From contig ONSU01000004.1 of the NCBI GenBank assembly GCA_900320545.1, positions 62,001 through 126,000 on the forward strand: a stretch of 64,000 bases of DNA. Reading direction: 5' to 3'. Source of the DNA: an uncultured Bacteroidales bacterium. GTDB lineage: Bacteria > Bacteroidota > Bacteroidia > Bacteroidales > UBA932. How positions within the stretch are numbered: the first letter of the stretch is position 1; each line of letters opens with the position of its first letter. The position numbers were made by a program, and so were the translations under genes. Below the pieces are notes generated by a model. It had not been told where the DNA came from, searched no databases, and worked only from the letters and a program-made list of their open reading frames with translations. Shown in pieces: positions 1,963 to 50,182 of this stretch.

Positions 1963-2385
1963 TTATTCTTCAACATAATCCCTGCGGACGACGAACTTGG
2001 TCGCGACGGGAAGTTTGTGGGATGCCAGGCGCATTGCCTCCTTGGCGATGGCGAGCGAAACGCCCTCGGCCTCGAAGAGGATACGACCGGGAGTGACGGG
2101 AGCGACGAATCCCTGGGGATCGCCCTTACCCTTACCCATACGGGTATCGAGCGGCTTCTTGGTGAACGGCTTCACAGGGAAGATCCTGATCCAGATCTGG
2201 CCTTCACGGTTCATACGGCGCGAAATAGCCTGACGGGCCGCCTCTATCTGCTGAGCAGTAAGCCAACAATTTTCAAGGGTCTTGAGTCCGAAAGAACCGA
2301 ATGCGAGCTGGTTGCCCCTGCCGGAGTTGCCCTTCATGCGGTTTTTCTGTTCCCTTCTGTACTTTGTTCTCTTAGGTTGTAACAT
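1963..2385 (-). CDS. rplP: 50S ribosomal protein L16, first gene of the detached second half of the S10-spc cluster
   Basis: The 140-residue protein starts [20 protein letters not shown] and contains [20 protein letters not shown], both diagnostic of L16, which binds near the A site and is needed for subunit maturation. In other bacteria rplP directly follows rpsC. Here rpsC ends at 49454, about 47 kb away, and a divergent DUF4294 gene takes its place upstream. The gene is intact and has its own promoter at 2473-2502, so the break has not damaged it. Confidence 0.98.
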
Positions 2386-2472
2386 TGCTGCAAACTTTAA
2401 AAATTTCCTAATTTGTCCCTAAATCATTGAGGCTCAACTGGTTGGGTATATTTAGCCCCAATTTTGGGATTG

Positions 2473-2502
2473 CAAAGTTAGTCAATTTTTCTGAAAAACA
2501 AA
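2473..2502 (-). promoter_or_regulatory. Bacteroidetes-type promoter for rplP and downstream ribosomal genes
   Basis: Read on the minus strand, TTTG (2502-2499) is followed after 18 bp by TAACTTTG (2480-2473), a full match to the Bacteroidetes -33/-7 consensus. The transcript would start about 80 bases upstream of the rplP ATG. The core TGCAAAGTTAG (plus strand) is identical to the core of the rplC promoter at 53377. Confidence 0.75.
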
Positions 2503-2612
2503 ACTTTTTTCAAATATTTTTCACAATTTTCGACCGCGAGTTTGAATACCTAACTTATTGAAGTTTCAACGAATTACGCAACAAAGCAAAATTTTTTTAC
2601 TCTGTTTTTCGA

Positions 2613-2658
2613 CCGGAGGCATTGCACCTCCGGGAAACCCGCCATTCCGGACGGCGGG
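2613..2658. repeat. Two adjacent small inverted repeats upstream of the DUF4294 gene
   Basis: CCGGAGG (2613-2619) pairs with CCTCCGG (2627-2633), and CCCGCC (2638-2643) pairs with GGCGGG (2653-2658). They lie in an otherwise AT-rich divergent spacer between rplP and the DUF4294 gene, just upstream of the latter's -7 box. They could be an operator or a degenerate repeat element. The rest of the 304-bp spacer holds only the two promoters. Confidence 0.4.
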
Positions 2659-2673
2659 GAAATTGAAAATTGC

Positions 2674-2689: not shown

Positions 2690-3475
2690 ATGCCGAAGAA
2701 ACTCGCATATCTGCTGATCCTGCTGCTGGTGACGTCGGCGGCAGAGGCCTTCGCGCAGAACCACGTGGAGCGGGCGATGCAACGGGCCAGGCAGCAGCGG
2801 GAGGCGATGGCGAGCCGCCAGATCTTCAACGACAGGAGCGTCGCCCGGAGCGGCTATCTCGCCTATCGCGTGGAGAACGGCGACACCGTCTATTTCGACA
2901 CCATCGACCCGGTCTGGATATTCGCGCGCGGGAATAAAAAGAATAAGAACTGGAAGAAATACTACCGCCTCGTGTACAACTTCGCCAAGGTCTATCCCTT
3001 CGCCCGGGCCGCCGCGATCGTCGACCACCTCGCCGACAGCACCATCGCCGCCAACAAGATGACGCGGGGCCAGAAAGACAAATTCGTCGGCGCGGTCCAG
3101 AAACAGCTGTTCGCCGACTTCGAGAAAACCGCCCGCAACATGACCATCTCCCAGGGCGCCCTGATGCTCAAGCTCATCGACCGCGAGAGCGAAAAGACCG
3201 GCTACCAGATCATCAAGGACTACAAGAGCGGCATCGCCGCAGGATTCTGGCAGGGCATCGCCAGGATGTTCGACAACTCCCTCAAGACCGAATACGACGC
3301 CGAGGGGCAGGACAAAGACATCGAAGAACTGGTAGAAAGGTGGAACAACGGCACCTTCCCCGCCCTGTACTGGTCCATCTTCTTCGAGAATCCGCCCGAA
3401 GTCCCCATCCCCGAACACTACTTCGAGGGCGACCTCGGCGTGGAAGTCAAGATCAAAAACAGGAAAAAGAAATAG
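2690..3475 (+). CDS. DUF4294 family exported protein
   Basis: I start this 261-residue protein at ATG 2690. The upstream in-frame extension would run through the promoter and lacks a signal peptide, whereas MPKKLAYLLILLLVTSAAEAFAQ is a clear Sec signal peptide. After it come GDTVYFDTIDPVWIFA and a YYRLVYNFAKVYPFARAA block, which I recognise as the core of the Bacteroidetes DUF4294 family. The function is unknown, and the protein is presumably periplasmic. It converges with lpxH, with only 6 bp between the stop codons. It occupies the slot upstream of rplP where rpsC would be expected. Confidence 0.8.
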   Translation: MPKKLAYLLILLLVTSAAEAFAQNHVERAMQRARQQREAMASRQIFNDRSVARSGYLAYRVENGDTVYFDTIDPVWIFARGNKKNKNWKKYYRLVYNFAKVYPFARAAAIVDHLADSTIAANKMTRGQKDKFVGAVQKQLFADFEKTARNMTISQGALMLKLIDRESEKTGYQIIKDYKSGIAAGFWQGIARMFDNSLKTEYDAEGQDKDIEELVERWNNGTFPALYWSIFFENPPEVPIPEHYFEGDLGVEVKIKNRKKK

Positions 3476-3481
3476 TCCCCG

Positions 3482-4231
3482 CTATCTCAGCCAGGTGAAC
3501 GAGGACGTCTCGCCGTCGAGCCGGAGGGCGGAGGAGCCGTCCATCCAGTCTTTGAGGATCAGGAGGCGGGCGCCGGAGGGAAGTGGTGTGTCGACTTCGC
3601 AGTGATAGTGGCCGAAGATGAAGGCGTCGACCGGGCGGTCTTTTCCGCGCCCGGCCTGGAATGACTCGCAGAACTGCCAGAGCGGTTCGCTTTCGCCCTT
3701 GAAGACATACTCCTTACCGCGAGCGAGGCGGTTGTGGCGCGACCAGCCGTTGCCGAAGGCGAAGGCGATACGCGGATGCAGCGAGGAGAAGAGAACCTGC
3801 AGGAAACGACAGTGGAAGATCGCCCGGAGGATCTTGTATCCGTCCTTGACGGGGCCGAGACCGTCTCCGTGTCCGAGGCAGAGCGTCAGGGGGCCGACGG
3901 AGACCACACAGGGCTGCTTCAGCTTCGCCATTCCGAGCTCTTCGAAGTAACGATAGGTCCACACGTCGTGGTTTCCCTGGAAGAAATACACCTTGACGCC
4001 CGCGTCCATCAGGGCGGTCAGCGCAGAGAAAACCCGCACATAGCCCTTCGGCACGACATCCTTGTATTCATACCAGAAATCCCAGATGTCGCCGAGCAGG
4101 TACAGCGCCTCCGTCTCCTCCGCGGGGATACCCTTCAGGAATGACACGAAACGCGCCTCCCGGGCGGCGGGATCCTTCACGTCCAGCCCCAGGTGCACGT
4201 CGGCGGCGAAATATGTCAGATGGCGCGGCAT
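3482..4231 (-). CDS. lpxH: UDP-2,3-diacylglucosamine hydrolase-like metallophosphoesterase (lipid A pathway)
   Basis: From ATG 4231 the protein has 249 residues and shows the calcineurin-like metal-binding motifs in order: ADVHLG (D11, H13), LLGDIWDFW (D48), QGNHD (N87, H88), GHGD (H121) and, late in the protein, FGHYH. LpxH cleaves UDP-2,3-diacylglucosamine to lipid X at the inner membrane. The start was chosen because its ATG overlaps the uppP stop by one base (TGATG), implying coupled translation. A longer ORF to 4285 exists but lacks family similarity at its N-terminus. The assignment to LpxH rather than a related phosphoesterase is by motif pattern. Confidence 0.85.
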   Translation of the reverse strand: MPRHLTYFAADVHLGLDVKDPAAREARFVSFLKGIPAEETEALYLLGDIWDFWYEYKDVVPKGYVRVFSALTALMDAGVKVYFFQGNHDVWTYRYFEELGMAKLKQPCVVSVGPLTLCLGHGDGLGPVKDGYKILRAIFHCRFLQVLFSSLHPRIAFAFGNGWSRHNRLARGKEYVFKGESEPLWQFCESFQAGRGKDRPVDAFIFGHYHCEVDTPLPSGARLLILKDWMDGSSALRLDGETSSFTWLR

Positions 4232-5049
4232 CAGGCGAAGATGAACAGGAGAATGGAAACAAGGGCGCAGTAGGCCGCGAACCACATCAGCTTGGCCTTC
4301 CGCACGATGGCGATCATCACCTTGCAGGCGAACAGGCCGGAAGCGAAAGCGGCGAGCGCGCCGAGGACGAGCGCCAGGGCGCCGACGCCTTCACCGAAGG
4401 CCGCGTGGCCGGTGGCCATCTTCAGCAGATCGAGCGACTGCTCCCCGATGATCGGAACAAGGACCATCAGGAACGAGAACTGGGCCATATCGGGCCGCTT
4501 TGCCCCGCAGAGAAGGCCGGTCGCGATGGTGGAGCCGCTGCGGGACACGCCGGGAATCACCGAGAACGCCTGGGCGAGGCCGACGACGAACGCCTGCCAG
4601 TACGAGATCCCGTTCCTGGCGTCCTTCGCCGCAGGCACCCTGAACCACTTGCCCGCACCGTCCGACACCAGCAGCAGGGAGGCCGTGACGAGCAGGCCGA
4701 CGGCCACGTTGCGGAGCGTCCCGTCAAAGAGCGCGTCCACATAGTCCTTCAGGAGGAAGCCGACAAGGGCCACGGGAATCATCGAGACGAGGATCTTGCA
4801 GACATAGTCGGTCTCGTCGTTGTATCTGAATTTGAAAAAGCCCCTGAGCAGTTTCCAGATCACACCCCAGAACACCACGATGGTCGCCAGGACCGTCGCG
4901 AAATGCACCGCGACCGTGAAATCCAGGAACCCCTCGGCGTCGACGCCCAGCAGTTCCTTGAAAATCATCAGATGCCCGCTGGAAGAGACGGGAAGGAACT
5001 CGGTCAGCCCCTGGACGAGACCGAGCAGAAGAGACTGCCACCAGTTCAT
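4231..5049 (-). CDS. uppP: Undecaprenyl-diphosphatase UppP (BacA)
   Basis: This 272-residue polytopic membrane protein has the two signature motifs: QGLTEFLPVSSSGH at residues 13-26 and GVSRSGSTIATG in the middle. UppP dephosphorylates undecaprenyl pyrophosphate to recycle the lipid carrier for peptidoglycan and surface polysaccharides. It overlaps the DUF3098 gene upstream by 4 bp and lpxH downstream by 1 bp, so ftsX-DUF3098-uppP-lpxH is a cell-envelope operon. Confidence 0.97.
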   Translation of the reverse strand: MNWWQSLLLGLVQGLTEFLPVSSSGHLMIFKELLGVDAEGFLDFTVAVHFATVLATIVVFWGVIWKLLRGFFKFRYNDETDYVCKILVSMIPVALVGFLLKDYVDALFDGTLRNVAVGLLVTASLLLVSDGAGKWFRVPAAKDARNGISYWQAFVVGLAQAFSVIPGVSRSGSTIATGLLCGAKRPDMAQFSFLMVLVPIIGEQSLDLLKMATGHAAFGEGVGALALVLGALAAFASGLFACKVMIAIVRKAKLMWFAAYCALVSILLFIFA

Positions 5050-5294
5050 TGTCCGTCCTTTTTAGGGCGGGCGCCCATAATCGAGATGATGACGACCGCG
5101 ATCCCGCAGACGATCACGAGCGGAGCCGCCACCAGGCGCCTGAAATCAAACATCGCGTAATTGAACACGGCCGGATCGTCGCTGCCGCCGCCGGTCATCA
5201 GGATCAGCCCGGCCGCCATCACCAGGACGCCGGCGATCATCAGCCGGATGCCCTTGGCGGTCATCGCCATCTTGTCTTCCTTCTTGGTTTCCAT
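5046..5294 (-). CDS. DUF3098 family small membrane protein
   Basis: This 82-residue protein is taken from ATG 5294 (METKKEDKM), one base after the ftsX stop. A longer start at 5315 would overlap ftsX. Two hydrophobic segments (around residues 17-37 and 54-74) are separated by a short loop ending in FNYAMFDFRR, the arrangement of the Bacteroidetes DUF3098 family, which characteristically sits between ftsX and uppP. The function is unknown. It overlaps uppP by 4 bp. Confidence 0.8.
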   Translation of the reverse strand: METKKEDKMAMTAKGIRLMIAGVLVMAAGLILMTGGGSDDPAVFNYAMFDFRRLVAAPLVIVCGIAVVIISIMGARPKKDGQ

Positions 5295-5295
5295 A

Positions 5296-6180
5296 TTACG
5301 AATACAATTCTTCATTTGACATATCGATCATCTTGCCCGCCACGAGGAAAGCGCTGCCCACGCAGAGGAGGATGCCGGCGGCGAGGACAGTGAGGGCCAC
5401 GACCGCCAGGATTTCCCGGGAGAAGATCTCCAGGACGGGGGCGAACTCCCGGTCGAAGAGATACAGGCCGGCGGCGAGGACCGCCAGGGCGATGAGCGCC
5501 GCCACAGTGCCCTGCAGGGCCGCCCGGCCCATGAAAGGCCGGCGGATGAATCCCCGCGTAGCCCCGACGAGCCGCATCGTATGCACCGAGAAACGCTTGG
5601 AGAACATGCTCAGCCGGACCGTATTGCCGATGAGCACCACGGAGATGAAGATCAGCAGGCCGATCAGAATGGCCGAGACAAGGGTGATCCGGCCGAGATT
5701 CTCGTTCAGACTGTCCACGAGCGACTCCTGATAGACCACTTCGTCCACCAGCGGAGAGGCCTTCAGGACCTCGCCCACCCGCTTCAGGCTGTCGGGCGAC
5801 ACATATTCCGCATGGAGGCATACGTCGAGGGAGACCGGCACGGGCGCGACGGCGAAGGCGTCCATAAAGTCCTCGCCGAGGAGTTCCTGCATCTCCCGGA
5901 TGCCCTGCTCGCGGGAGATGTACTCCGTCGTACGGACGTAAGGGAGGGAATCCAGCACCGCCTGATAGCCCTTCGCCGCCTCTTCGGAGACGTTTTCCTT
6001 CAGGATGACGGACACTTGCATCCGCTCCTTGAACCAGTCTCCGACGGACTTGGCGTTCAGAAGGACGAGCATCGCCGCGCCCAGCAGCACAAGCACCAGC
6101 GAGATGCTGATGACGGTCGAAACCCGGGAGCCCCACAGGCGCCTCCGGAGGGTTTTGTTCTCTTTTTTTCGCGTTGCCAT
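5296..6180 (-). CDS. ftsX: FtsX-like cell-division permease
   Basis: From ATG 6180 (MATRKKENKTLRRR) the protein has 294 residues: a short basic cytoplasmic start, TM1 at about 20-42, a periplasmic domain of about 125 residues with GIREMQELLGEDF, then three C-terminal TM segments, the second preceded by GATRGFIRRPF. This is the FtsX layout. FtsX pairs with the ATPase FtsE to activate peptidoglycan hydrolases at the septum. ftsE is not in the window. The upstream ATG at 6270 was rejected because it would read through the divergent promoters. Confidence 0.9.
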   Translation of the reverse strand: MATRKKENKTLRRRLWGSRVSTVISISLVLVLLGAAMLVLLNAKSVGDWFKERMQVSVILKENVSEEAAKGYQAVLDSLPYVRTTEYISREQGIREMQELLGEDFMDAFAVAPVPVSLDVCLHAEYVSPDSLKRVGEVLKASPLVDEVVYQESLVDSLNENLGRITLVSAILIGLLIFISVVLIGNTVRLSMFSKRFSVHTMRLVGATRGFIRRPFMGRAALQGTVAALIALAVLAAGLYLFDREFAPVLEIFSREILAVVALTVLAAGILLCVGSAFLVAGKMIDMSNEELYS

Positions 6181-6195
6181 ACTCCAAAAATCCTT

Positions 6196-6233
6196 CAAAG
6201 GTAGTAATTTTTGCATTTTTATCGTTATCTTTG
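6196..6233. promoter_or_regulatory. Divergent -7 elements for ftsX operon (minus) and GT5-domain gene (plus)
   Basis: On the minus strand TACCTTTG (6203-6196) lies 16 bp before the ftsX ATG. On the plus strand TATCTTTG (6226-6233) lies 19 bp before the GT5 gene ATG. Both match TAnnTTTG. Neither has a clean TTTG at -33. They sit in the 72-bp divergent spacer. Confidence 0.5.
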
Positions 6234-6252
6234 TAGAATAAAATGAATTATT

Positions 6253-7071
6253 ATGGATAATTCCGCGCAAAAAGTCCTATTCGTCAATTCGGAGATCTTC
6301 CCGTATCTCCCGGAAAACCATATTTCCCGGATCGGCCGCTATCTTCCGCAGGGCATCCAGGAAAAGAAGAAAGAGATCCGCGCCTTTATGCCGCGCTACG
6401 GATGCATCGGCGACAGGACCCACCAGCTTCACGAAGTCATCCGCCTTTCCGGAATGAATATCATCATCGATGACGTCGACCGCCCGCTGGTCATCAAGGT
6501 CGGCTCCATCGCCGCCGCCAGGATCCAGGTCTACTTCATCGACAACGAGGATTATTTCCGTCGCAAGCACGTCTACTTCGACGGCAAGGGCAAATTCTTC
6601 AAGGACAACGGCGAGAGGGCCGTCTTCTTCGCCCGCGGGGTGATGGAGACCGTCAAGAAACTCCGCTGGGCGCCGGACATCATCCACTGCCACGGCTGGA
6701 TTTCTCACCTCCTTCCGCTCTATCTGAAGAAGGCCTACAAGGACGACCCCATCTTCTCGCAGAGCAAGATCGTCCTGTCGCTCTACGGCGACACACCGAC
6801 GGAGAAGTTCAGCAAGACCTTCCACCAGACGGCCCTTTTCGGCGCCATCAAGCCCAAGGACACCCTCCTCGGCCCCGATGCGAGCGGCCTTGACCTCGCC
6901 CGCGTCGCCGTCCGCTATTCCGACGGCGTCATCCTCGGCTCCGAAGACGTCCACCCCGACCTCGCCCGCTTCGCCGGCAGGATGGACATCCCGATTCTCA
7001 ACTACGACGCCGCATCCTTCGAGGACGGCAGTTACATTGACGCGTACAACGCATTTTACGATAAACTGTAA
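6253..7071 (+). CDS. Stand-alone glycogen/starch synthase N-terminal (GT5) domain protein
   Basis: This 272-residue protein resembles the N-terminal half of glycogen synthase: KVLFVNSEIFPYLPENHISR at the start, IRAFMPRYGCIGDR, an FDGKGKFFKDNGERAVFFARG stretch and PDIIHCHGWISHLLPLYLK. It lacks the C-terminal GT1 domain that completes a glycogen synthase. Such single-domain proteins are common in Bacteroidales, so the short length is probably native and not a truncation. Catalysis is doubtful without a partner. Its TAA overlaps the ATG of the DUF4270 gene (TAATG), indicating translational coupling. Confidence 0.75.
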   Translation: MDNSAQKVLFVNSEIFPYLPENHISRIGRYLPQGIQEKKKEIRAFMPRYGCIGDRTHQLHEVIRLSGMNIIIDDVDRPLVIKVGSIAAARIQVYFIDNEDYFRRKHVYFDGKGKFFKDNGERAVFFARGVMETVKKLRWAPDIIHCHGWISHLLPLYLKKAYKDDPIFSQSKIVLSLYGDTPTEKFSKTFHQTALFGAIKPKDTLLGPDASGLDLARVAVRYSDGVILGSEDVHPDLARFAGRMDIPILNYDAASFEDGSYIDAYNAFYDKL

Positions 7072-8801
7072 TGAACTTGAAACAATTCACGGCGGCACTC
7101 CTTGCCGTGGCGCTGGCGGTTCCCTCCTGTGTCAACGTCAACGAGGAACTCGGCAGCGACAACCTCGATAAAGAGTATCTGATCGATATCTACTCCGTCG
7201 ACATTCCCCTGACGGAAACCCGCCTCCAGATGGCCGACAGCATCTCGGGATACTCCACTTCCCGCCTGACGGTCGGCGCCGTCCGCGACGACGTCTTCGG
7301 CGAGACCGTCCGGGGCTCGGCCTTCACGCTGGTTCCCGCCCTCGACACCATCGACTTCGGCAAAGACCCCGTCGTCAGGCGCTTCCACATCGCATTCGCG
7401 CAGGATACCATCTCCGCGCCGACCGAAAGCGACCGCTACATCCTCCAGAACGTGGACGTCTACGCGCTCACCAAGCCGATGAACCCCGCCAAGAGCGGCA
7501 CCAACGACCCCCTTTCCTTTGACGAGAGCAAGCGGATTTCCAGCGGCATACCCGTCTACGCGGGGAGCGACTCGCTCAGTTTCGACTTTACCAAAGAATT
7601 CGCGATGAGCTACATCGAGGGCATCCGCAGGGTGGCCCGCGACGGCAAGATCCTCATCACGCGGGAAGGCGCGCAGCCCGGCGACACCGTTTCGATGGAA
7701 GACTACACGGCCGAGCTGCCGGGCGTCTATGTCCGCATCAAGCCGGGCGCGGGCAACGGCGGCCGCATCAATATGTTCAAGCTCTCCAGCATGACCCTGG
7801 TCACGGATCAGAGCAGGACCTATTATGACCGCAACAATAACATCGCCGTTCTCCGCATCAATTCGGAATACGACGGCGTCCGCAAGGATACGGCCTTCCT
7901 CTTCTACCCCGGCCAGTCCGCGTTCGTCGACGAGGTCGAGGCGGTCGTCAACAGCACGAAATTCACCCAGTACGCCTTCAACTACACAGGCCAGTCCACC
8001 AGGGACCGCGAGGGCGTGGCGACGGGCGATCTGCTGGTCGAAGGCGGAGGCGGGCTCAAACCCGTCATCCAGGCCTCCGAGCTGCGGGAAAAGGTCCTTC
8101 AGGACATCCTGACCCGCGACGGCAATCCCGACAAGGCCATCATCAACCTCGCCACCATCTACCTTCCCTTCGAGGAGCCGGCCGATTACCGGGATCTCGA
8201 CCTCTATCCCACGACGCTGAGTCCGACCTGCCAGACCCTGACAAAGTCCGAGGACGGCACCGTCAGGAGCACGTTCAACGGCCTCCCGGATGCGGCGGCC
8301 GACGTGGAGAACCAGGGCGGCATCAACCGTTCCCTCCTCCAGTATCAGCCCGACATCACCTGGCACCTGTCTAAGATTCTCCAGCTGGACGAATCCGAAC
8401 TCGCGGCGGATCCCGACCTCATCCACAACTACGACATCTGGCTCTTCACGATCCACGACGAAATCGTCGAATCCTCCGCCACCTCCTCCTACGACCAGGA
8501 CTATCTCCAGCAGATGCTGCTCTACCAGTACCTCAACAACATCTACGGCGGATACGGAGGGTATGGCGGATATGGTTACGGCGGCTACGGATACGGCGGA
8601 TATGGCTACGGATACGACAGTTACGGGTACTCGAACTATATGAACATGTACCTGCTGTCTTCAATGTTCGCGTCCTCGGGCACCACCTCCACCACGACCC
8701 AGACCCTCGACAAAGACCGCTATTACAAGGGCATCCTCAACGGGCCCGCCGCGGCGCGCCACCCGCACCTGAAAGTGACGTATTCGCTGCCGAAGGAATA
8801 A
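7071..8801 (+). CDS. DUF4270 family lipoprotein with Gly/Tyr-rich insertion
   Basis: This 576-residue lipoprotein has a signal peptide ending in AVPSC (Cys about residue 21). The body matches the Bacteroidetes DUF4270 family by its position after a GT5-domain gene and its overall layout, with YPGQSAFVDEVEAVVN in mid protein and a terminal HLKVTYSLPKE. Near residue 490 is a run of about 30 residues made almost only of Gly and Tyr, in GGYG units. The function is unknown, probably at the outer membrane. It starts overlapping the GT5 gene and ends before a terminator. Confidence 0.72.
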   Translation: MNLKQFTAALLAVALAVPSCVNVNEELGSDNLDKEYLIDIYSVDIPLTETRLQMADSISGYSTSRLTVGAVRDDVFGETVRGSAFTLVPALDTIDFGKDPVVRRFHIAFAQDTISAPTESDRYILQNVDVYALTKPMNPAKSGTNDPLSFDESKRISSGIPVYAGSDSLSFDFTKEFAMSYIEGIRRVARDGKILITREGAQPGDTVSMEDYTAELPGVYVRIKPGAGNGGRINMFKLSSMTLVTDQSRTYYDRNNNIAVLRINSEYDGVRKDTAFLFYPGQSAFVDEVEAVVNSTKFTQYAFNYTGQSTRDREGVATGDLLVEGGGGLKPVIQASELREKVLQDILTRDGNPDKAIINLATIYLPFEEPADYRDLDLYPTTLSPTCQTLTKSEDGTVRSTFNGLPDAAADVENQGGINRSLLQYQPDITWHLSKILQLDESELAADPDLIHNYDIWLFTIHDEIVESSATSSYDQDYLQQMLLYQYLNNIYGGYGGYGGYGYGGYGYGGYGYGYDSYGYSNYMNMYLLSSMFASSGTTSTTTQTLDKDRYYKGILNGPAAARHPHLKVTYSLPKE

Positions 8802-8821
8802 CGACGGCGCGACAGCGTGAC

Positions 8822-8855
8822 AAAAAAAGCGGCAACCGTAAGTTGTCGCTTTTTT
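8822..8855. terminator. Bidirectional intrinsic terminator between DUF4270 gene and acpP
   Basis: A-rich AAAAAAAGCG, CAAC and GTTG, CGCTTTTTT form a hairpin with A and T runs on opposite sides, so it can end transcripts arriving from both convergent genes. Confidence 0.85.
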
Positions 8856-8876
8856 ATTTGGGAGGTCAAGACGGAA

Positions 8877-9125
8877 TTACTCGGTACCGAGCTTCTCCTC
8901 TACCTTGGCGATCGCATCGGCCACGGTGGCGATGTTGTTGGTCTCGTCATCGGGAATCTTGATTCCGAAAACGCGCTCAAACTCCATGAGGAGCTCGACG
9001 GTATCCAGGGAGTCGGCGCCAAGATCATTGGTGAAGTTGGCGGCCTCGGTCACATTGGACTCTTCGACACCCAGTTTGTCAACGATGATGTCTTTGACCT
9101 TCTTAACGATTTCTTCGTGAGTCAT
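8877..9125 (-). CDS. acpP: Acyl carrier protein
   Basis: This 82-residue acidic protein contains the phosphopantetheine site [15 protein letters not shown] with the attachment serine at residue 39, flanked by FTNDLGADS and [11 protein letters not shown] carries growing acyl chains in type II fatty-acid synthesis and supplies lipid A acylation. No other fab gene is adjacent, which differs from the common acpP-fabF pair. It has its own promoter and ends at the bidirectional terminator. Confidence 0.96.
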
Positions 9126-9174
9126 GATGAATAATTTTATGTTTTTTACTTTTTACAGATGTCAAATAAACGCA

Positions 9175-13064: not shown

Positions 13065-13075
13065 AGTGAGAGAGT

Positions 13076-39828: not shown

Positions 39829-39836
39829 ATCGCTTT

Positions 39837-41498: not shown

Positions 41499-41516
41499 AG
41501 TTTTTGTATTATTTAA

Positions 41517-42974
41517 TTATTCATATCCTTCATATCCGGGATTCTGGGTAAGGGCTCCGTAGGACTTGTCCCGTTCGGCCTGCGGAATGGGCCAGTACAT
41601 CAGCTGGTGACGGTCGTTCCAGCCGTCGATGGCATAGGAATCGTTGCCGGGATAGACCGTCCTGATCCAGGCCGGGAAGTCGCCGCTCTGATAATCGAGG
41701 GCGCTCACGTAGCCGTGACGGCGGATTGCGAGGCGCTTGATGTCGAACCAGCGGCGGCCCTCGGCGTAGAACTCCCGCTGGAGTTCGTCAAGCAGCAGGG
41801 CCTCGAATTCGTCATCCGTCATCGTTGCGGGCAGACTGACGGTTTCGTAACGCGTCTCCATCAGGGTTTTGAGCGTTCCGAGCGCCGTCCCGACGCTGCC
41901 GCCGAGCCATTCGGCCTCCGCCTTCATCAGATAGGCGTCCGCAAGACGGAAGACCACCAGCGGAGACTCCGAAGGGGCCGGATTGGGCATGAACTGCCCG
42001 GCCTGCCCGTTGGGAAATTTGATGACGCGCGAGGCCTCGGCGCCGAAGGTGGCTTTGCCCCTCCAGTCCCCGGTCTTACCGGTCGCGTCGGCGAACAGGC
42101 CTCCGTAGAGGGCCGCGGTCGGCGAATAGTTGAAGGAGCCGTCGGTGTCGTTTACCCGCTCGAAAAGGCGGATATAGTCCGTGGAACGGATGTTGACCGG
42201 GGCGAAGACGAGTTCGCGGGACGCGGATCCGTTGATGAACATCCGGGCCCAGTCTTCCGCCGAAGCGGAGAGCTGGAAGGCCGCGGCGGAGGTAATGACC
42301 TTGTCGGCCTCGGCGGCCGCCTCGGCATATTTACCCTCCCAGAGATACACCCGGGCGCGCAGCAGGGCCACGGCTTCCGGCGAGACGTATGCGTACGACT
42401 TGAATCCGACCTGGGCGGCCTCGAAATTCTCATCGGCCCGGTCGAGGTCGTCCTCGATGAATTCCCACACCTCGGCTTCGCTCTTGCGCCGGACAGAAGC
42501 GTCCAGGTTGGTCGGCGTCTCGATGACCGGCACGCCGCCGTAACGGGTCACGAGGTTGTAATACACGTAGGCCCGGAAGAAATAACCCACGGCCAGCGCC
42601 TCTTTCGCGGCCGCAGAACCGTTGTCGGCGGCCGATTTGATGAGGAGGTTGGCATACTGGAGCTTGCCGTAGCAGTAGGTCCAGCGGGAGAGGGCCGTCG
42701 ACGAAGCGGCGGACTGCGTCTCGGCGTGGGTGTCGCTGAAACTGAATCCCGGACCGGCCGCATAATTCTCGGCCAGGTAGTCGCCCTCGAACCAGAGGTT
42801 GCTGACGATGGCCTCGAACTGGTGCATCACGCCGTTCTGCAGGAGCGCGATGTCCGAATCCTTCAGTTTGTCGGTGGTGATGGATCCCTTCGGAGAGATC
42901 TGATCGAGCATCTTGCCGCAGGCGGAAACGGCCAGGACAGTCAAAATTGCGAAAATAATTCTGGATTTTTTCAT
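41517..42974 (-). CDS. SusD/RagB family nutrient-binding lipoprotein (locus B)
   Basis: 485 residues with lipobox AVSACGK and SusD features: LQNGVMHQFEAIVSNLWFEG near 50, KEALAVGYFFRAYVYYNLVTRYGGVPVIETP near 130, and EGRRWFDIKRLAIRRHG near 410, ending LTQNPGYEGYE. It forms the surface lid of the preceding SusC. It is 12 bp downstream of susC and 18 bp upstream of the PKD/PQQ gene. Confidence 0.94.
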   Translation of the reverse strand: MKKSRIIFAILTVLAVSACGKMLDQISPKGSITTDKLKDSDIALLQNGVMHQFEAIVSNLWFEGDYLAENYAAGPGFSFSDTHAETQSAASSTALSRWTYCYGKLQYANLLIKSAADNGSAAAKEALAVGYFFRAYVYYNLVTRYGGVPVIETPTNLDASVRRKSEAEVWEFIEDDLDRADENFEAAQVGFKSYAYVSPEAVALLRARVYLWEGKYAEAAAEADKVITSAAAFQLSASAEDWARMFINGSASRELVFAPVNIRSTDYIRLFERVNDTDGSFNYSPTAALYGGLFADATGKTGDWRGKATFGAEASRVIKFPNGQAGQFMPNPAPSESPLVVFRLADAYLMKAEAEWLGGSVGTALGTLKTLMETRYETVSLPATMTDDEFEALLLDELQREFYAEGRRWFDIKRLAIRRHGYVSALDYQSGDFPAWIRTVYPGNDSYAIDGWNDRHQLMYWPIPQAERDKSYGALTQNPGYEGYE

Positions 42975-42986
42975 AATACCTGCCGT

Positions 42987-45900
42987 TTAGAAGTTGATGC
43001 TTGCGCCGAAGAGCAGTGACCGGAGCGTCGGCTGCCAGCCGAAATCGACACCGTACTTGGCGGCGGCGGGCCCGTTGGCCATCGAGACCTCCGGATCATA
43101 GCCGTCGTACTTGGTGAAGGTGAAGGCGTTGTCTACCGTGAAGAAGACCTTCGCGCCCCGCATCTTTGCCCGTTCCATCCATTTCCGGGGGAAGTGGTAA
43201 GCCAGGGTGATGGTCTTGATCTTGAAATAGGACGCGCTCTCGAGATAGCGGTCGGAAGTGAGGATGTTGTAATCGACATCCCATCCGGTGTGCATTCCGG
43301 AAACGGTCGGACGCGGCATGGTGTTGGAGGTGCCGGGGCCTTTCCAGTAGTTGAGGGCGGCCGCCTGGCTCACGTTGAAATACTGCGTGTAGGACTTGCC
43401 GTCATCGCCGGTGACACCGCCGGAGGAGAGGCCGAGATGCTCGGTGCCCTCCTGTCCGCAGCCCTTCCAGGCCGCGAAGATCTTGCCGCCGATGGAGTAC
43501 TGGCAGAAGATATTGAGTTCCAGGCCTTTCCAGCTGAATGAAGAGGTAAGGCCGCCGAAGAAGTCGGGCGTCGCCTTGCCGGTAATCATCCGGTCGTTGT
43601 CGTAGTCGATGTCGCCGTCGCCGTTGAGGTCCCGGTATTTCACATCACCCGCACGGACGCCCTTGGCGTAGAGTTTCTCCGGGACTTCGCTGTCATTCTG
43701 GTAGATTCCCTCCGCATGCAGCATGTACCAGGTCGAGATCGGCTGCCCAGTGATGATGGCGTGCTTGTTGCCGCCGTAGAGGTTGGAGTCGGTGACATAG
43801 ATGATGTCCTGATCATCGAGCAGTCTGACGAGCTTGTTCTTCGCCCAGGAGAAATTGGCGCTCAGGTCCCAGAGGAAATCCCCCGCACGGACGACGGTGC
43901 CGCCGACGGTCAGTTCCACGCCGGCATTGGCCAGGACGCCGATATTCGACGAAAGGGTCGTATAGCCGGAGGTCGCGATGACCGGCCTGTTGTAGAGCAG
44001 GTCGTCGGTCTGGGAATAGAACACCTCGGCCTGCAGGGTCAGGCGGTCTTCCAGCCAGGACGAGTCGAAGCCGATGTTGTATTTTGTGGACTTCTCCCAT
44101 TTCAGGTCCTGGGCCGGCGTGCCGAACGCCAGGCCGGAGACGCCGTTGTAGGCCGATCCGGCATTCACCAGATCCATCGCGGCCCAGTTGCCGATGCCCG
44201 CCATCGAACCGGTCTGGCCGGCGGAGAGGCGGAATTTCAGCTCCGTGAGGACCTTGGTCTTGGGGAAGAATTTCTCATTGGTAAGGATCCAGGCGAAGGA
44301 GCCGGCCGGGAAGAAGCCGTAACGGTTCTTCTTGGGGAACCGGGATGATCCGTCCGCTCGGAACGAGAGGTTCAGGATGTAGCGGTTGTCCCAGTTGAAG
44401 GCGGCGCGGGAGAAGATGGATTCCAGCGCGTAGGCATTGTAGCCGATGCTGCCGGCGTAGATGTTCGAGCCGGAGGTGATCAGGTTGAAGGAAGAGGACG
44501 GGTAGGCCGCGTTGGCGTAATTGTCGGATCCCGCCCCGAAGGTGTTGTATTCGTACTTTTCGAAGGAGTGACCGGCCATCAGGCTGTAGGTCAGGCGGCC
44601 GACCTCCTGGTTCCAGCTGAGGACATTGTCGACGACCCAGCGCAGCGAATTGTTCTTCTGTTCGGTAAGCGCGTGCCAGCCGTCCTTGTAACCGCGTTCG
44701 GTATTGAGTTCGGTGAGTTTCTTGACGGTATGGTCGTAGATGGTGTACGCGCTCACGGACGGGGTGTACTTGAGCCCCTTGATGGGGGTGACGTCGAAGG
44801 AGACCGTTCCGGAAAGCTGGTATTTGTTGTTGTAATAGTCCTCTTCCTCGATGCACATCACGGGATTGTGGCGGGCCAGACCGTCCGTGGACATCGTCCG
44901 GTAGTCACCGCTCAGGGCGTTCTTACGGATCTCCCGGCCGTATTCGTTAAGACCGCGCTCGCAGTACGGCGTGTACCAGGGCTGCTCCTCGCGCGCGGCG
45001 CGAAGCACCTTCAGCGAGCCGTCGGTCTCCTCGCTCATATCGTAGCGGGCGTAGGCGCCGCCGATATTGAGGTTGAACTTGAGCCAGCGGGCGATCTCGT
45101 GCCCCAGGCGGGTACGGACCGTAAATTTGTTGAAATTGGTCTTGTTGAGGTAGCCCTGCTGGTTCTCATAGCCGCCGGAGACATAGAACGTGGTCTTGTC
45201 GCTTCCGCCGGACATCGCCACCGACGCGGCGCCGCGCAGGGCCCAGCGGCGGGAAATCGATCCGACCCAGTCGAAATCGGCCCGTTCGGCGGGGATATAC
45301 AGACTCTTGAGCTCTCCCGTTCCTTTCTCGGCCACATAGACGTTCCAGTTGTCCACCGCGGCCTGCATCACGTCAATGTACTGTGCTGTATTGGCCATCT
45401 TGATGTCGTGCGCCACCTGGGCCACGCCGAAATAGCCGTCCACGTCAATGTGCGTCTTGCCGGCCTTGCCGGATTTGGTCGTGATGAGGATGACGCCGGC
45501 ATTGGCGCGGCTGCCGTAGATGGCCGTCGCGGAGGCGTCCTTGAGGACCTCCATCCGCTCGATGTCGTTGGCGTTGATATTGGGATAGCTCTCGGCCGGG
45601 ATGCCGTCCACCACATAGAGCGGGGCGGAGGATCCGTTGATGGAGCTGACGCCGCGGACGATGATATTCGGGGCCGTGCCCGGGATGCCGGAGGGCGAAG
45701 TGATGCTGACGCCGGTGACGCGGCCCTGGAGGGATTTGACCGGATCCACTTCGGCGCCGCGGTCCACTTCGTCCATCTTGATCGAGGAGATCGAGGAGGA
45801 TACCAGGCGCTTGGATGCGGTACCGTAGCCGATGACGACCGCCTCGTCGAGGTTCTCGGACTTGGTCCGAAGGGTCATGTCGATCCGGTTGCGTCCGCGG

Positions 45901-46427
45901 ACCGGCTCATCCACCGTCTCGAATCCGATGAAGGAGAAGTTGAGCGTCCCCTCCTGGGAGACTTCCACGGAATAATTGCCGTCCAGATCGGTCGTCACGG
46001 CCTTTCCCGCCGCTCCGTCGGGGACGATGACGCAGCCGATGACGGGCTCGCCGCCCTGGTCGAGGATGCGGCCCTTCACGATATGCCGGGAAGGCTGGGG
46101 TGAAGAGGCGTCACGCGATTCCGCCGCGGGCCGGACGGTGCCGGAAACCTGGATTTTCTTGTCTTCTACGGAGAAGGTCACATCCTGACCGGCGAAAATC
46201 TGTGACAGGATGGTCCGGATATCTGCGCCGGTGGCCGACACCGATACGTTCCGGGCGAGGTCGACCTGGCTGCTCCGGATGATGACGGAGTAGCCGAACC
46301 GTTTCTGGATCTCGTCGACCGCCTCCTTCACCGTCACGTTCTGCAGCTGCAGCGTGTGCTGCGCCCAGGCCGGAACGGACAGGACTGCGAATAACAGCGA
46401 GATAATAAGTGCTTTTGTCCTATACAT
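42987..46427 (-). CDS. SusC/RagA family TonB-dependent transducer with STN domain (locus B)
   Basis: 1146 residues: signal peptide, STN domain at about 25-95 (TVKEAVDEIQKRFGYSVIIR, IRTILSQIFAGQDV), a carboxypeptidase-like domain (GRILDQGGEPVIGCVIVPDG), TonB-box region (NLDEAVVIGYGTASKR), plug with LYVVDGIPAESYPNINANDI, and barrel ending LLFGASINF. STN domains talk to FecR-type anti-sigma factors, and the fecR gene is 6 bp upstream. This transporter is therefore the likely sensor of the whole region. Confidence 0.95.
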   Translation of the reverse strand: MYRTKALIISLLFAVLSVPAWAQHTLQLQNVTVKEAVDEIQKRFGYSVIIRSSQVDLARNVSVSATGADIRTILSQIFAGQDVTFSVEDKKIQVSGTVRPAAESRDASSPQPSRHIVKGRILDQGGEPVIGCVIVPDGAAGKAVTTDLDGNYSVEVSQEGTLNFSFIGFETVDEPVRGRNRIDMTLRTKSENLDEAVVIGYGTASKRLVSSSISSIKMDEVDRGAEVDPVKSLQGRVTGVSITSPSGIPGTAPNIIVRGVSSINGSSAPLYVVDGIPAESYPNINANDIERMEVLKDASATAIYGSRANAGVILITTKSGKAGKTHIDVDGYFGVAQVAHDIKMANTAQYIDVMQAAVDNWNVYVAEKGTGELKSLYIPAERADFDWVGSISRRWALRGAASVAMSGGSDKTTFYVSGGYENQQGYLNKTNFNKFTVRTRLGHEIARWLKFNLNIGGAYARYDMSEETDGSLKVLRAAREEQPWYTPYCERGLNEYGREIRKNALSGDYRTMSTDGLARHNPVMCIEEEDYYNNKYQLSGTVSFDVTPIKGLKYTPSVSAYTIYDHTVKKLTELNTERGYKDGWHALTEQKNNSLRWVVDNVLSWNQEVGRLTYSLMAGHSFEKYEYNTFGAGSDNYANAAYPSSSFNLITSGSNIYAGSIGYNAYALESIFSRAAFNWDNRYILNLSFRADGSSRFPKKNRYGFFPAGSFAWILTNEKFFPKTKVLTELKFRLSAGQTGSMAGIGNWAAMDLVNAGSAYNGVSGLAFGTPAQDLKWEKSTKYNIGFDSSWLEDRLTLQAEVFYSQTDDLLYNRPVIATSGYTTLSSNIGVLANAGVELTVGGTVVRAGDFLWDLSANFSWAKNKLVRLLDDQDIIYVTDSNLYGGNKHAIITGQPISTWYMLHAEGIYQNDSEVPEKLYAKGVRAGDVKYRDLNGDGDIDYDNDRMITGKATPDFFGGLTSSFSWKGLELNIFCQYSIGGKIFAAWKGCGQEGTEHLGLSSGGVTGDDGKSYTQYFNVSQAAALNYWKGPGTSNTMPRPTVSGMHTGWDVDYNILTSDRYLESASYFKIKTITLAYHFPRKWMERAKMRGAKVFFTVDNAFTFTKYDGYDPEVSMANGPAAAKYGVDFGWQPTLRSLLFGASINF

Positions 46428-46433
46428 TGGATT

Positions 46434-47357
46434 CTATTTGAGAGAAAGGGATATGCTGTCCCCTTTCCACTTGATTTTCATATAATTCTGCGTATTGAGC
46501 GCCTGAAGGATAGCGGTAAGGTCCTCTCCGTTGATAAAGGAGGCGTAGAAGCGCTCCCCGGCGATCCGTTCGTCCTCGATGACGATCCGTACGCCGAACT
46601 TCCGCTCCAGGCAGCGGACAATGTCGTCCATCCGGCGGTTGGTAAACTGCAGGCCGCCGCGGAGGATATAATCCGTATAATTCCCGGAAGAGAAGCGCTG
46701 GCGCTCCACCGAGCCGGACTGATGGTCGTAGCGGACCAGGTCCCCGGTCTTCATCCGGAGGGTGTGGCCGCCGTCCTTGCCGGCGATGGCCATTTCCACC
46801 GAGCCGTCCACCAGGGCCAGTTCGGATTCGGCGTCACCCGGATAGGAGGAGAAATTGAATTCCGTTCCCAGCACCGTAACGGTGATGTCCCCCGAATGGA
46901 TTTCGAAGGGGCAACCCTCCAGATGGGTGATGTCGGCGTAGGCCTCCCCCTTCAGGAATACCTTGCGGGTCCCGTCGCGGAAATCCGACGGGTACACCAG
47001 CCGGGTGTCCGGCGCGAGGCGGAGGGTGGATCCGTCCGGAAGAGTGACCGTCTTCGTCTCGCCCGTATGGGTATAGGCCTCGGCCCATTCGACAGCGGCG
47101 GGCTTGCGGGTCAGCAGAACGGCGCCGAGGATGCATAGCGGCAGCAGGAGGGCCGCCGCCACGTGTTCCGCCACCCGCAGGATGCGACGGGGCCGGGACC
47201 GGCGGTTTTCCTCCCCTACGGCCTGTGAGAAGCGCGTGTAGCCCTCCTCGGCCATCGAGTAGTCGTCGGTCCCGAACTCATCGGCCAGTTTCTGGAAAGA
47301 TTTGTCAGCGACGCTGTCATCCGCGTGCTCCAGAAACCATTTTTGCAAATCGTCCAT
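46434..47357 (-). CDS. FecR family anti-sigma factor with DUF4974-like C-terminus
   Basis: I choose ATG 47357 (MDDLQKWFLEHADD, 307 residues) because it overlaps the stop of the upstream beta-helix gene as TAATG; an in-frame ATG at 47381 lies inside that gene. One TM segment (AALLLPLCILGAVLL) near residue 75 separates the cytoplasmic sigma-binding part from the FecR domain (VTLPDGSTLRLAPDTRLVYP, VTVLGTEFNFSSY) and the terminal DUF4974-type region (GLQFTNRRMDDIVRCLERKF). It normally holds an ECF sigma factor until the STN-SusC senses ligand. No sigma gene is adjacent. Confidence 0.92.
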   Translation of the reverse strand: MDDLQKWFLEHADDSVADKSFQKLADEFGTDDYSMAEEGYTRFSQAVGEENRRSRPRRILRVAEHVAAALLLPLCILGAVLLTRKPAAVEWAEAYTHTGETKTVTLPDGSTLRLAPDTRLVYPSDFRDGTRKVFLKGEAYADITHLEGCPFEIHSGDITVTVLGTEFNFSSYPGDAESELALVDGSVEMAIAGKDGGHTLRMKTGDLVRYDHQSGSVERQRFSSGNYTDYILRGGLQFTNRRMDDIVRCLERKFGVRIVIEDERIAGERFYASFINGEDLTAILQALNTQNYMKIKWKGDSISLSLK

Positions 47358-49318
47358 TATTTCTGATAGGCTCCGGGCCACCAGGCGTCACCGCGGTCAT
47401 TGCCGAGGGCGTCCTTGCCGAGGGCACCGATGCTCTCCAGCCACCCGTAATAGAACTCGCCGAGGGTGTTGTCGCCAATGTAGGCATTGAAATCGCTGTA
47501 CTTCATATCAAGGATTGACTTGACGTACGACTGGAATGAGGAGGGTATGATCTTTTTGAAAGTATCATCCGGTCCCTTCCAGGTGTACACATACTTGTCC
47601 GCATCGAATGCTCCGTTGCCGAGAGACTCCAGGCTGGCGTCATAGATATTTCCCGTACTTTCAATCGATACATCGGTATCGTCAATGGCAGGTCCCATGA
47701 TGTTATTATACGCATAGAGCGGGCTCTTCATCTTGTCGAACGGACCGAAGACGAGCGGTGTCTTGATGGTGGAAGTATTGATAATGATAGAGTTGGCCAG
47801 CAGCACCGAGGCGTTGTTGGAAGCATCCGTATTGCGGATCGCCACCAGGTCTGCCGCTCCGATGAGCGTCGAGTTGGTGAAGATGATGAGGCCGTCGTTA
47901 TTCAGAAGGACACCGTTCCCGCCTTCCTGCTGACGTTCGTTTCCGTAGATCGTGCAGTTGTTGAAGCAGGCGATGCCCGGGTTGCTGCCGTGGAGGATGA
48001 AGCCCCACTGGTTGGTACGCATCGTATTGTTGTAGAAGACGCAGTTGTTGAAGAAACCGATGGCGCCCTGTTTGTTGTTCTTGCTGCCGTTGACCTGGAT
48101 GAGGCCGCGGTCAGCGCCCCGGTTGCCGATGAACCTGGTATTGTTACACTTGAACCAGCCGCCTGTCGCTCCGGTAGATCCGTTGCCGGCCTGCAGGTAA
48201 ATCAGCGCGCCCGTTACGGCCTCGCAGTCCTCGAAGACGCAGTCGTCGATCGTGAAGTCGGCCTGCTGGACGGAGATGATGCCGGCGCCCTTGCCCGTAC
48301 TCGTCGCCATCGGATCATTGGTCCTGGCCTTGCAGGACTTGAACTGACATCCTTCGACAGTGACGATGGCATCCGCGGCGTTGGCGTGAATCGCGCCGCC
48401 GTTGCCGGTCTCCGTATAGCAGCCCTCAAAGAGGCAGTCTTTGTAATGCTGCTCACCCTTGGAGTTATTGACGGCTCCGCCGGTATTGAGGGAGTGACTC
48501 TTGAACGTGCAGTCCTCGCAGTTCACGACGGCGGCGTTATTGTTCGTAAAGACCGAACCGCCGTTCCTGCCATAGTTGTCCGCCTCGAAAACGCATTTAG
48601 ACGCGGAGACGACCGCCTTTCCGCAATGGATGGCGCCGCCGCTGGACGAGGTGCTGACCTGGTTGTTGGTGAACACCGTTCCGTCAAGAGTCAATTGGGC
48701 TTCCTCCCCCTCGGCGGAAGAGATGCTGATGCCGCCGCCGTTTCCTTCTTCAAGTTTGCCGTTCTTGATGGTCATTCCTTTGATCGAGAGATTGACCTGG
48801 CTGCCGATGGTGAGTACGCGGGCGCGTTCCGCGCCGCTCAGAATAGCTTCGGTGCTACCCTTGAAAGTAATCGCGATCGGCTCCGGAGCACCGGGAAGGG
48901 CAATCTCAAGACCGGCGAGGTCTTCATCGTTCCTGGGGGTTACATAAGTGCCGACGGCGAAAATGACGGTATAGCCGTCGATAAGGTCGAGATTTTCATA
49001 CAGGGGGGGCTGAGGAACGACAGGATCGTCTGTGACAGGAGGCTCTGTATCGCCGGCCGGGCCGGGCTCAACTGCCGGCTCCGTGGGCGCGATGGCAGCC
49101 ATCACCAAATCCTGAAGACCGTCGAAACTCATTGCATTCTCCGCGCTCGAGCCGTCCTTGAGACCGGCTCCTTCCGGAGAGACGTAGAGTTCTTTGGCCG
49201 GCTCCGGCGGTTCGGGCCCGTCGGTCGGGTCGTCGGTGTTCCCTTTGTTCTTGTCACAAGAGAATACAAGCGCTCCCGCCATAGCCAAAGCGCTAAAATA
49301 CAAAAAGAATTTTTTCAT
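47357..49318 (-). CDS. Parallel beta-helix surface lipoprotein without fimbrillin domain, first gene of locus B
   Basis: 653 residues. Lipobox ALVFSCDK, Asp/Pro linker, then ELYVSPEGAGLKDGSSAENA and an extra Pro-rich insertion (PAVEPGPAGDTEPPV). From about residue 200 the beta-helix is nearly identical to that of the 882-aa locus A protein, ending DAWWPGAYQK. It lacks the fimbrillin domain its paralogue has, so the shared helix has been joined to different N-termini. It lies between the terminator after rpsC and fecR, and I see no housekeeping promoter match upstream, so it may use an ECF-type promoter. Confidence 0.83.
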   Translation of the reverse strand: MKKFFLYFSALAMAGALVFSCDKNKGNTDDPTDGPEPPEPAKELYVSPEGAGLKDGSSAENAMSFDGLQDLVMAAIAPTEPAVEPGPAGDTEPPVTDDPVVPQPPLYENLDLIDGYTVIFAVGTYVTPRNDEDLAGLEIALPGAPEPIAITFKGSTEAILSGAERARVLTIGSQVNLSIKGMTIKNGKLEEGNGGGISISSAEGEEAQLTLDGTVFTNNQVSTSSSGGAIHCGKAVVSASKCVFEADNYGRNGGSVFTNNNAAVVNCEDCTFKSHSLNTGGAVNNSKGEQHYKDCLFEGCYTETGNGGAIHANAADAIVTVEGCQFKSCKARTNDPMATSTGKGAGIISVQQADFTIDDCVFEDCEAVTGALIYLQAGNGSTGATGGWFKCNNTRFIGNRGADRGLIQVNGSKNNKQGAIGFFNNCVFYNNTMRTNQWGFILHGSNPGIACFNNCTIYGNERQQEGGNGVLLNNDGLIIFTNSTLIGAADLVAIRNTDASNNASVLLANSIIINTSTIKTPLVFGPFDKMKSPLYAYNNIMGPAIDDTDVSIESTGNIYDASLESLGNGAFDADKYVYTWKGPDDTFKKIIPSSFQSYVKSILDMKYSDFNAYIGDNTLGEFYYGWLESIGALGKDALGNDRGDAWWPGAYQK

Positions 49319-49393
49319 AGACGTGTACTAATTTTGGTCAGTTTACATAAAGAACACGCCGGGCAGCCCTTTCCCCCCAACGGGGATGATAAA

Positions 49394-49428
49394 AAAACAA
49401 AGAGCCGGGCGGAAAATCCGTCCGGCTC
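49394..49428 (-). terminator. Intrinsic terminator ending the first half of the S10 cluster, after rpsC
   Basis: On the minus strand GAGCCGGACGG, loop ATTTT, CCGCCCGGCTC, then TTTGTTTTTTT: a GC-rich 11-bp stem with one mismatch and a T tract, about 26 bp past the rpsC stop. In a normal S10 cluster transcription continues from rpsC into rplP, so a terminator here fits the split arrangement. Confidence 0.9.
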
Positions 49429-49453
49429 CTGCCTCTGTGTAATCCCTTGAGGA

Positions 49454-50182
49454 TTAGCGGCGCTCGCCACGGTCGCGGTCGCGACCGCCACGGCCACCGC
49501 GGCGTCCGCCACGGTCTCCACCGCGTCCGCGGCCACCCTGGCCTGCGGCTGCGCCTGCGGAGATGCCGGCATTCGGAGAAAGATCCTGCTTGCCGAACTT
49601 CTCACCGTTGCAGATCCAAACCTTGATACCGAGGGCACCGACCTTGGTGCTGGCGACGGCCAGCGCGTAGTCGATGTCGGCACGGAAGGTATGGAGCGGA
49701 GTACGTCCTTCCTTGAACATTTCGCTGCGGGCCATTTCAGCACCGCCGACGCGGCCGCTGATCTGGACCTTGATGCCCTCGATCTTGATGGCGCGGCGAT
49801 AGCTCACGCGGCCTTCGATCTGGCGGGCGATGCTGTCGGCGACGATGTTGGCGTCGACCTCGGGCCTCTTCACTTCGTAAATGTTGATCTGGACATCCTT
49901 CTTCGTGACTTTCTTCAGCTCTTCCTTAAGCTTGTCGACCTCCTGGCCGCCCTTTCCGATGATGACACCGGGGCGGGCCGCCTGAATGGTGACGGTGATG
50001 AGCTTCAGCGTACGCTCGATGATGATCCTCGAGAGGCTCGCTTTCGCGAGACGGCTGCCGAGATACTGACGGATCTTGTAATCCTCGGCGATCTTCTCAG
50101 GGTAGTTACCACCGCACCAATTGGAGTCCCAACCACGGGTGATACCGATTCTGTTGCTGATAGGGTTTGTTTTCTGTCCCAT
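49454..50182 (-). CDS. rpsC: 30S ribosomal protein S3, last gene before the split
   Basis: 242 residues starting [20 protein letters not shown], with the KH-domain GKGG motif at about 76-79 and [11 protein letters not shown] near 195. S3 forms part of the mRNA entry tunnel. After about residue 205 comes a Gly/Ala linker and a Gly-Arg repeat tail ([15 protein letters not shown] and onward) rich in Arg and Asp. In other bacteria rplP follows at once; here there is a terminator and a 47-kb interval. Confidence 0.98.

Follow-up and report, generated by a model that had tools for sequence, protein, structure and literature searches.

The str-S10-spc-alpha cluster of ribosomal protein genes is among the most conserved bacterial gene neighbourhoods. 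Here we analysed a 64,000-nucleotide stretch of DNA from an uncultured Bacteroidales bacterium (G000:C25:62001-126000; hereafter the window), in which this cluster is split between rpsC and rplP, and found that the break is genuine and shared by a clade of 19 genera (throughout, G labels genomes, L loci and g genera; G000 is the window's own genome and g1 its genus). The account that best explains the data, to which we assign a probability of about 0.88, is an ancient fission in the S10 operon that yielded three independent units, followed by later moves. The str-S10-spc-alpha cluster would have been broken twice inside the S10 operon, between rpsJ and rplC and between rpsC and rplP, the latter break occurring once, in the common ancestor of the 19 genera, and rpsL-rpsG-fusA-rpsJ, rplC-rpsC and rplP-to-alpha would be separate transcription units wherever they are located. 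Subsequent rearrangements would have shifted the pieces, leaving rpsC and rplP from about 11 to 454 kb apart and sometimes inverted. We infer that both breaks date to the same ancestor, as well as the order of the later moves.

The window contains the middle piece, rplC-rplD-rplW-rplB-rpsS-rplV-rpsC (49454..53316, minus strand), and the start of the third, rplP-rpmC-rpsQ-rplN-rplX-rplE-rpsN (1..2385, minus strand, with rplP at 1963-2385), which continues via spc-alpha beyond the window. Both were assigned with Pfam. The rplC-to-rpsC order is retained as in the canonical cluster, and the rpsC-rplP adjacency is lost: the two genes are 47 kb apart, with strand and order the same. The first-pass annotation of this DNA had described the reading frames at the break as intact, and indeed all 14 ribosomal protein frames are intact and match their own Pfam ribosomal families, with rpsN truncated by the window edge. 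The genome (2,546,607 bases in 58 contigs, 93.3% complete, 1.5% contaminated) gives one match each for rpsC and rplP, both on a single 187,925-base contig. In the fetched loci of split genera the middle piece is likewise apart from both rpsJ and rplP. The spc-alpha part is continuous in the loci examined; in L082 the gene families F9 to F42, which carry no Pfam names, follow rpsN as they do in G007 and G024. The join of rplP to a DUF4294 gene is also present in other assemblies of the window's genus, and the join of rpsC to a 653-residue gene (47357-49318) was seen only in this genome.

The second break lies outside the window. In the window's genome rpsJ is located at G000:C25:136561-136845 on the minus strand, 21 kb upstream of rplC and no longer adjacent to it as in the canonical cluster, with fusA, rpsG and rpsL behind it. 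Because rpsJ, together with rpsL-rpsG-fusA, is also separated from rplC, str-S10-spc-alpha is present as three units, and in this genome all three conserve order and orientation. By comparison, rpsJ adjoins rplC in 8/8 intact-cluster loci that extend to it, and it lies 10-403 kb from rpsC in the 19 split genomes (own included) that carry both on one contig. In G004, G009, G003, G130 and G118 rpsJ shares the strand of rplP and lies 38-58 kb upstream of it, with rpsC elsewhere. Since two members of the window's genus, G189 and G183, place rpsJ differently, 10-11 kb downstream of rpsC, the 21 kb gap need not be old. Another split-genus genome, G051, has two rpsJ matches (G051:C2:166654-166938 and G051:C18:954-1238), possibly a duplication relic or a binning error. 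The first-pass annotation had seen the break between rpsC and rplP and overlooked that between rpsJ and rplC, along with the clade-wide spread and the promoter motifs that precede rplC and rplP.

The distribution of the split was assessed in three samples. In a family draw of 199 genomes, rpsC and rplP could both be placed in 172, one or both having no match or listed place in the other 27. The genes are adjacent in 32 of the 172, all within g7, g8, g9, g20, g21 and g24, and non-adjacent in 140, from 19 further genera, so that each genus is uniform in this respect. Both genes are on one contig in 23 of the split genomes (10.9-454 kb apart) and on different contigs in 117. Three split genomes (G003, G010 and G077) are single contigs, in which the distances of the pieces from dnaA, which may not mark the origin, are 346-788, 429-766 and 965-1155 kb, respectively. 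In a phylum draw of 138 genomes at least 95% complete, own genome included, the genes are adjacent in all 132 others that have both, with match starts no more than 790 bases apart; five are without either match. Of the 80 GTDB loci recovered by way of rpsC, four are adjacent (67-76% rpsC identity) and five are too short to judge; the other 71 extend 1.5 kb or more downstream and show no rplP next to rpsC. The split is thus real and shared: near relatives are not contiguous at this point, and the separation of rpsC from rplP is not peculiar to one assembly.

In a maximum-likelihood tree of 12 ribosomal proteins from 41 genomes or loci, the sampled representatives of the 19 split genera together form a single clade with an ultrafast bootstrap (UFBoot) value of 100, and intact-cluster genera and outgroup loci fall outside it. 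In the same tree L080, titled Prevotellaceae, groups with g9; that label therefore looks wrong. The closest loci by rpsC protein are metagenome-assembled genomes of Bacteroidales, many with titles that name rumen or gut, and include Candidatus Cryptobacteroides faecipullorum, gallistercoris and intestinipullorum (82-85% rpsC identity). NCBI files Candidatus Cryptobacteroides under Bacteroidales incertae sedis.

Bacteroidota promoters follow the pattern TTG, 17-21 bases, TAnnTTTG. Scanning the 300 bases upstream of genes located this motif before rplC (53377..53406) and before rplP (2473..2501), both on the minus strand. The rplP motif is found in 28/28 split loci of a first set and 60/60 of a second (88/88 in total), compared to 2/13 intact-cluster loci, where the two cases must lie inside rpsC, being 194 and 243 bases upstream. 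The rplC motif is found in 66/67 split loci versus 0/11 intact-cluster loci. After shuffling of the first set the means were 0.55 for rplP and 0.6 for rplC in the split group, and 0.15 and 0.1 in the intact group. Upstream of the internal genes rpsC, rplB, rplE and rplN the pattern was found zero times, in split and intact groups alike. In the window rpsC is followed by a terminator-like hairpin with a U run (49391..49432, minus strand; minimum free energy -21.7 kcal/mol, z -4.77, with 0/200 shuffles as good), which is absent from the list returned by a simple consensus terminator scan. The motifs presumably work as promoters. Since promoter motifs and 5' leaders are present at both new ends, we take the pieces to be three separate units, probably transcribed separately and each apparently switched on by itself.

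Downstream of these motifs, the 5' leaders of rplC (53317..53377, minus strand, with a 5'-terminal CCGCA...UGCGG hairpin) and rplP (2386..2473, minus strand, a structured candidate) carry a fold signal at the level of the clade. Neither of the window's own leaders is significant when taken singly (z 0.10 for rplC and -0.67 for rplP), and the case for structure is based on pooled z-scores plus some sub-clades. Relative to dinucleotide shuffles, the first 34 nucleotides of 64 distinct rplC leaders have a mean z of -2.05 and the first 60 nucleotides of 87 distinct rplP leaders a mean of -1.85, with none above +1 in either set. The 3' parts fold no better than shuffles (-0.04 and -0.25, respectively). 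Other promoter-led genes of the same loci give means of 0.06 (34 nucleotides, n=40) and -0.24 (60 nucleotides, n=23), and the corresponding values for the small number of rpsL leaders are -0.42 (n=5) and -1.19 (n=3). The helix sequences are highly variable, with 34 distinct forms for rplC and 76 for rplP. Compared to column shuffles, the folds of rplP alignments reach z -5.9 in g22 (double changes in 2/27 pairs), -3.5 in g4/g10 (7/12 pairs) and -2.8 in g15/16/17/5/3 (4/12 pairs); they are weak in g6/12/2/19 (z -2.3, 0/3 pairs) and g11/13 (z -1.3), and the fold is without support in the window's genus g1 (z 0.19). Plain alignment folding yielded no consensus structure for either 63 rplC leaders or 61 short rplP leaders. 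No known RNA family reached its gathering score in six relative loci, and the window from 1900 to 54000 had two sub-threshold Rfam matches. A 5'-terminal hairpin in the rplC and rplP leaders across the clade is thus well supported by these comparisons; any specific regulatory fold is no more than a candidate.

Hairpin leaders were also noted at other ribosomal protein genes. In L261-L285 rpsP (S16) has a distinct upstream hairpin leader, with the core UUUUCUCGAGAAGAUAAGG in many split-genus genomes, which is a candidate S16 leader of this Bacteroidales family; in some intact-cluster genomes the rpsP leader takes a shorter, CCUUACGGGAUAAGG-like form. By eye, rpsL leaders also often open with a hairpin. 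As rpsP and rpsL too have hairpin leaders, structured leaders appear to be common on ribosomal protein genes in these genomes. A copy of the rpsL promoter and leader was considered as the source of the rplC and rplP promoters. Leader similarities do not support it, because the rpsL-rplC pair scores a mean z of 1.95 (n=17), scarcely more than rplC-rpsP (1.74, n=13), and rpsL-rplP scores 0.14 (n=17).

How the cluster came apart is less certain than that it did. Ancient inversion or translocation with breakpoints between rpsJ and rplC and between rpsC and rplP, promoters being gained afterwards, is the route that we narrowly favour. The pieces occur in both orientations, about 11-454 kb apart, with neighbours that vary among genera. 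In intact-cluster genera, counterparts of three genes of the block now found beside rplP (glgA, ftsX and DUF3098) sit with uppP at a separate locus. Such a route demands that two breaks in an essential operon were tolerated, and no breakpoint scar is identifiable now.

Tandem duplication of the cluster followed by differential loss, known as the SNAP model (discussed in the available part of PMC8046335), had been put forward in the first-pass annotation and is rather doubtful. It would need no intermediate without expression, and the pieces of the window's genome keep order and orientation. There is also a lead in the gene content: for 5/49 genes called in the fetched intact-cluster flanks (G024 and G007), reciprocal best matches turn up at scattered places in split loci. 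One of the five, a fumarase/aspartase-family lyase (56-66% identity) found some 18 kb upstream of rpsL in G024, has its best matches directly upstream of rplC in G018 and G009. However, none of the 49 is a gene of the block that now adjoins rplP, rpsC and rplP are single in nearly all genomes (the exceptions being a second partial rplP in G152 and the doubled rpsJ of G051), the rplC leader is not specially rpsL-like, and many genomes have no conserved order of the pieces. Little support was found for duplication, which may still hold because old duplicates would have vanished.

The arrangement of the window's genus, with rpsC about 10 kb from rplP, might instead be the original insertion from which other genera moved away. 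Its interval is the shortest of all, and the pieces retain their order and orientation, but it is confined to the window's genus among the fetched loci, that genus is nested deep in the split clade, and the arrangement is absent from the representative of g17, the sister genus, and from the outer representatives; we regard it as unlikely. That ribosomal protein pieces were misplaced onto one contig in assembly or binning has a very low probability and is rejected because of the distribution (140/172 family genomes, three of them single-contig, and 71/80 GTDB loci). The draft state in 58 contigs, and an rpsC-side join and 35 kb region seen only in this genome, speak for it; promoter motifs at both new ends and the single copies of rpsC and rplP in this genome speak against it.

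Several points weigh against an ancient fission into independent units. Each of the 117 different-contig cases alone could be an assembly break, although such breaks would hardly explain that 0/140 are adjacent here and 32/32 elsewhere, many of the latter being more fragmented. The loci are not all independent, as L036 and L097 are the same DNA and the two collections overlap. The promoters are predicted by match to a Bacteroidota consensus, and separate transcription is deduced from sequence. The representatives of g14 and g23, which form one deep branch, do not have the block upstream of rplP, so that more than one arrangement may have been the first to follow the break. Finally, the largest part of the interval in the window and its join to rpsC are supported by one assembly.

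The interval between rpsC and rplP was described at first pass as holding conserved genes together with receptor loci, which it does; that it is a composite of an older block and a region seen only in the window's genome had escaped notice. The block next to rplP (2690..12806, about 10.1 kb, mixed strands, assigned with Pfam) reads, from the rplP side, DUF4294(+), an lpxH-like metallophosphatase(-), uppP/BacA(-), DUF3098(-), ftsX(-), a glgA-like gene(+), an unknown gene(+), acpP(-), pnuC(-), uvrC(-) and a thioredoxin-like tlpA(-), where lpxH, glgA and tlpA are names that we presume from fold family and position. The order is the same in L097, L098, L100 and L101, loci of the window's genus with a compact form in which the rpsC-rplP interval is about 10.5 kb and holds the tlpA-to-DUF4294 block. 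In 25/80 GTDB loci lpxH follows rpsC at 7.8-9.8 kb on the same strand; one other locus has it inverted at 0.9 kb. A tree of the middle piece places all 25 inside the clade of the window's genus; the seven loci that group with other genera are without the compact arrangement, and many further loci of the window's genus have other genes in the 10 kb downstream of rpsC. The glgA-to-DUF4294 part lies upstream of rplP, with rplC-rpsC elsewhere, in the representatives of g3, g4, g5, g6, g10, g11, g13, g16, g17 and g22. In six genomes with an intact cluster that were checked (G006, G007, G008, G020, G024 and G055) uppP is on a different contig from the cluster. From this spread of the block we read the compact arrangement as a secondary approach of rplC-rpsC to rplP: in the ancestor of the window's genus rplC-rpsC would have arrived about 10 kb upstream of rplP, beyond the uvrC-to-DUF4294 block, and that gap would then have taken in about 35 kb of SusC-type sequence in the window's own genome.

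That region (14379..49318, mixed strands) encodes beta-helix proteins, two GDPD proteins and others, and includes TonB-plug (SusC-type) receptors at 30347-33313 and 42987-46427, an extracytoplasmic function (ECF) sigma factor at 34568-35092 and FecR at 46434-47381, all assigned with Pfam. From their position, 28535-30331 and 41517-42911 are taken as putative SusD partners. The region was seen in the window's genome only, and its genes have no more than weak paralogue matches (24-32% identity) in 8/114 other rpsC-bearing loci. In two of the eight, L023 and L040, the stretch 1-6 kb downstream of rpsC carries separate receptor genes, placed at 3-6 kb and only 24-32% like those of the window, and in L023 also FecR and a sigma factor; this gap may therefore have received independent insertions more than once. 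Between block and region (12975..14218) are two 93-nucleotide direct repeats with hairpin motifs (12975-13067 and 14126-14218), which are 96% alike, with hairpins GTCGATAACCCTCC...GGAGGGTTGTCGAC, and lie at the edge of the SusC-type region; the exact hairpin motif was not found in the 285 loci searched. No transposase or integrase was found among the interval proteins scanned, a scan that left out at least 28535-30331, 35218-38592 and 41517-42911, and the 93-nucleotide pair supplied the only candidates for terminal repeats. On the proteins scanned a simple transposon insertion seems unlikely, in agreement with the first-pass annotation.

Some further observations concern the genes around the pieces. 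Four genes that neighbour uppP in G006 have counterparts (62-84% identity) downstream of rpsC in G017 (L130:14918-17738 and L215:15826-18586), and one of the four recurs in the flank of the G007 cluster. At G108:C12:49577-49855 and G015:C1:58964-59209, beside the uppP match close to rplP, there are further weak BacA matches containing one in-frame stop, and in G003 BacA is matched by two segments of a single frame. Before rplC in the window, dapF (diaminopimelate epimerase, 53712-54711) has, by eye, apparent inserted stretches rich in Ala, Pro and Cys, and a tandem repeat with a 52-base step (53486-53675) lies between dapF and the rplC promoter motif.

Breaks in this cluster are already known, and the pattern seen here appears to be a variant that we have not found described: among the matches listed, the open-access PMC literature gave no description of the arrangement in Bacteroidota or Cryptobacteroides. 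As reported in the available part of a study of 204 genomes of Gammaproteobacteria and Bacilli, 75/115 str-S10-spc-alpha rearrangements fall between operons, breaking their links but sparing the operons themselves, spc-alpha is unbroken in every genome, and duplication with loss is discussed as a general route of rearrangement (PMC8046335). Lineage-fixed breaks and drift of the neighbourhood after the first break are common to those genomes, on that account, and the present clade, and spc-alpha is joined there as it is in the loci examined here; unlike there, both breaks here are within the S10 operon, one of them shown in 19 genera. Aquifex aeolicus, to judge from the part of the source at hand, similarly has operons of the cluster at separate places in one lineage whose relatives keep them together, but dispersal there is at the level of operons (PMC3879981), whereas here the S10 operon itself is in three, with promoter motifs at the cut ends. 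A survey of 20 ribosomal protein leader candidates has, in its accessible portion, L13 and S4 as the Bacteroidia entries and none before rplC or rplP (PMC7247131). The leaders described here resemble that set in being short, apparently structured, lineage-specific and placed 5' of ribosomal protein operons, and differ in having no Rfam match in the stretches searched; they are candidates only.

A speculative reading, with the odds against it, is that the fission cut one feedback domain into three and that the new, fast-changing leaders bind a ribosomal protein of their own unit, restoring autogenous control. Candidate ligands would be L4 or L2 for rplC-rpsC, and S8, L16 or another protein for rplP onward. 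If true, the clade would represent a natural replay of ribosomal protein autoregulation arising after operon break-up. Tools that presume rpsC-rplP synteny would misjudge genomes of the split clade. With intact near relatives beside it, this clade offers a before/after comparison of what co-transcription of ribosomal protein genes is worth, and it could show how promoters and leaders are acquired and whether autogenous control alone keeps stoichiometry.

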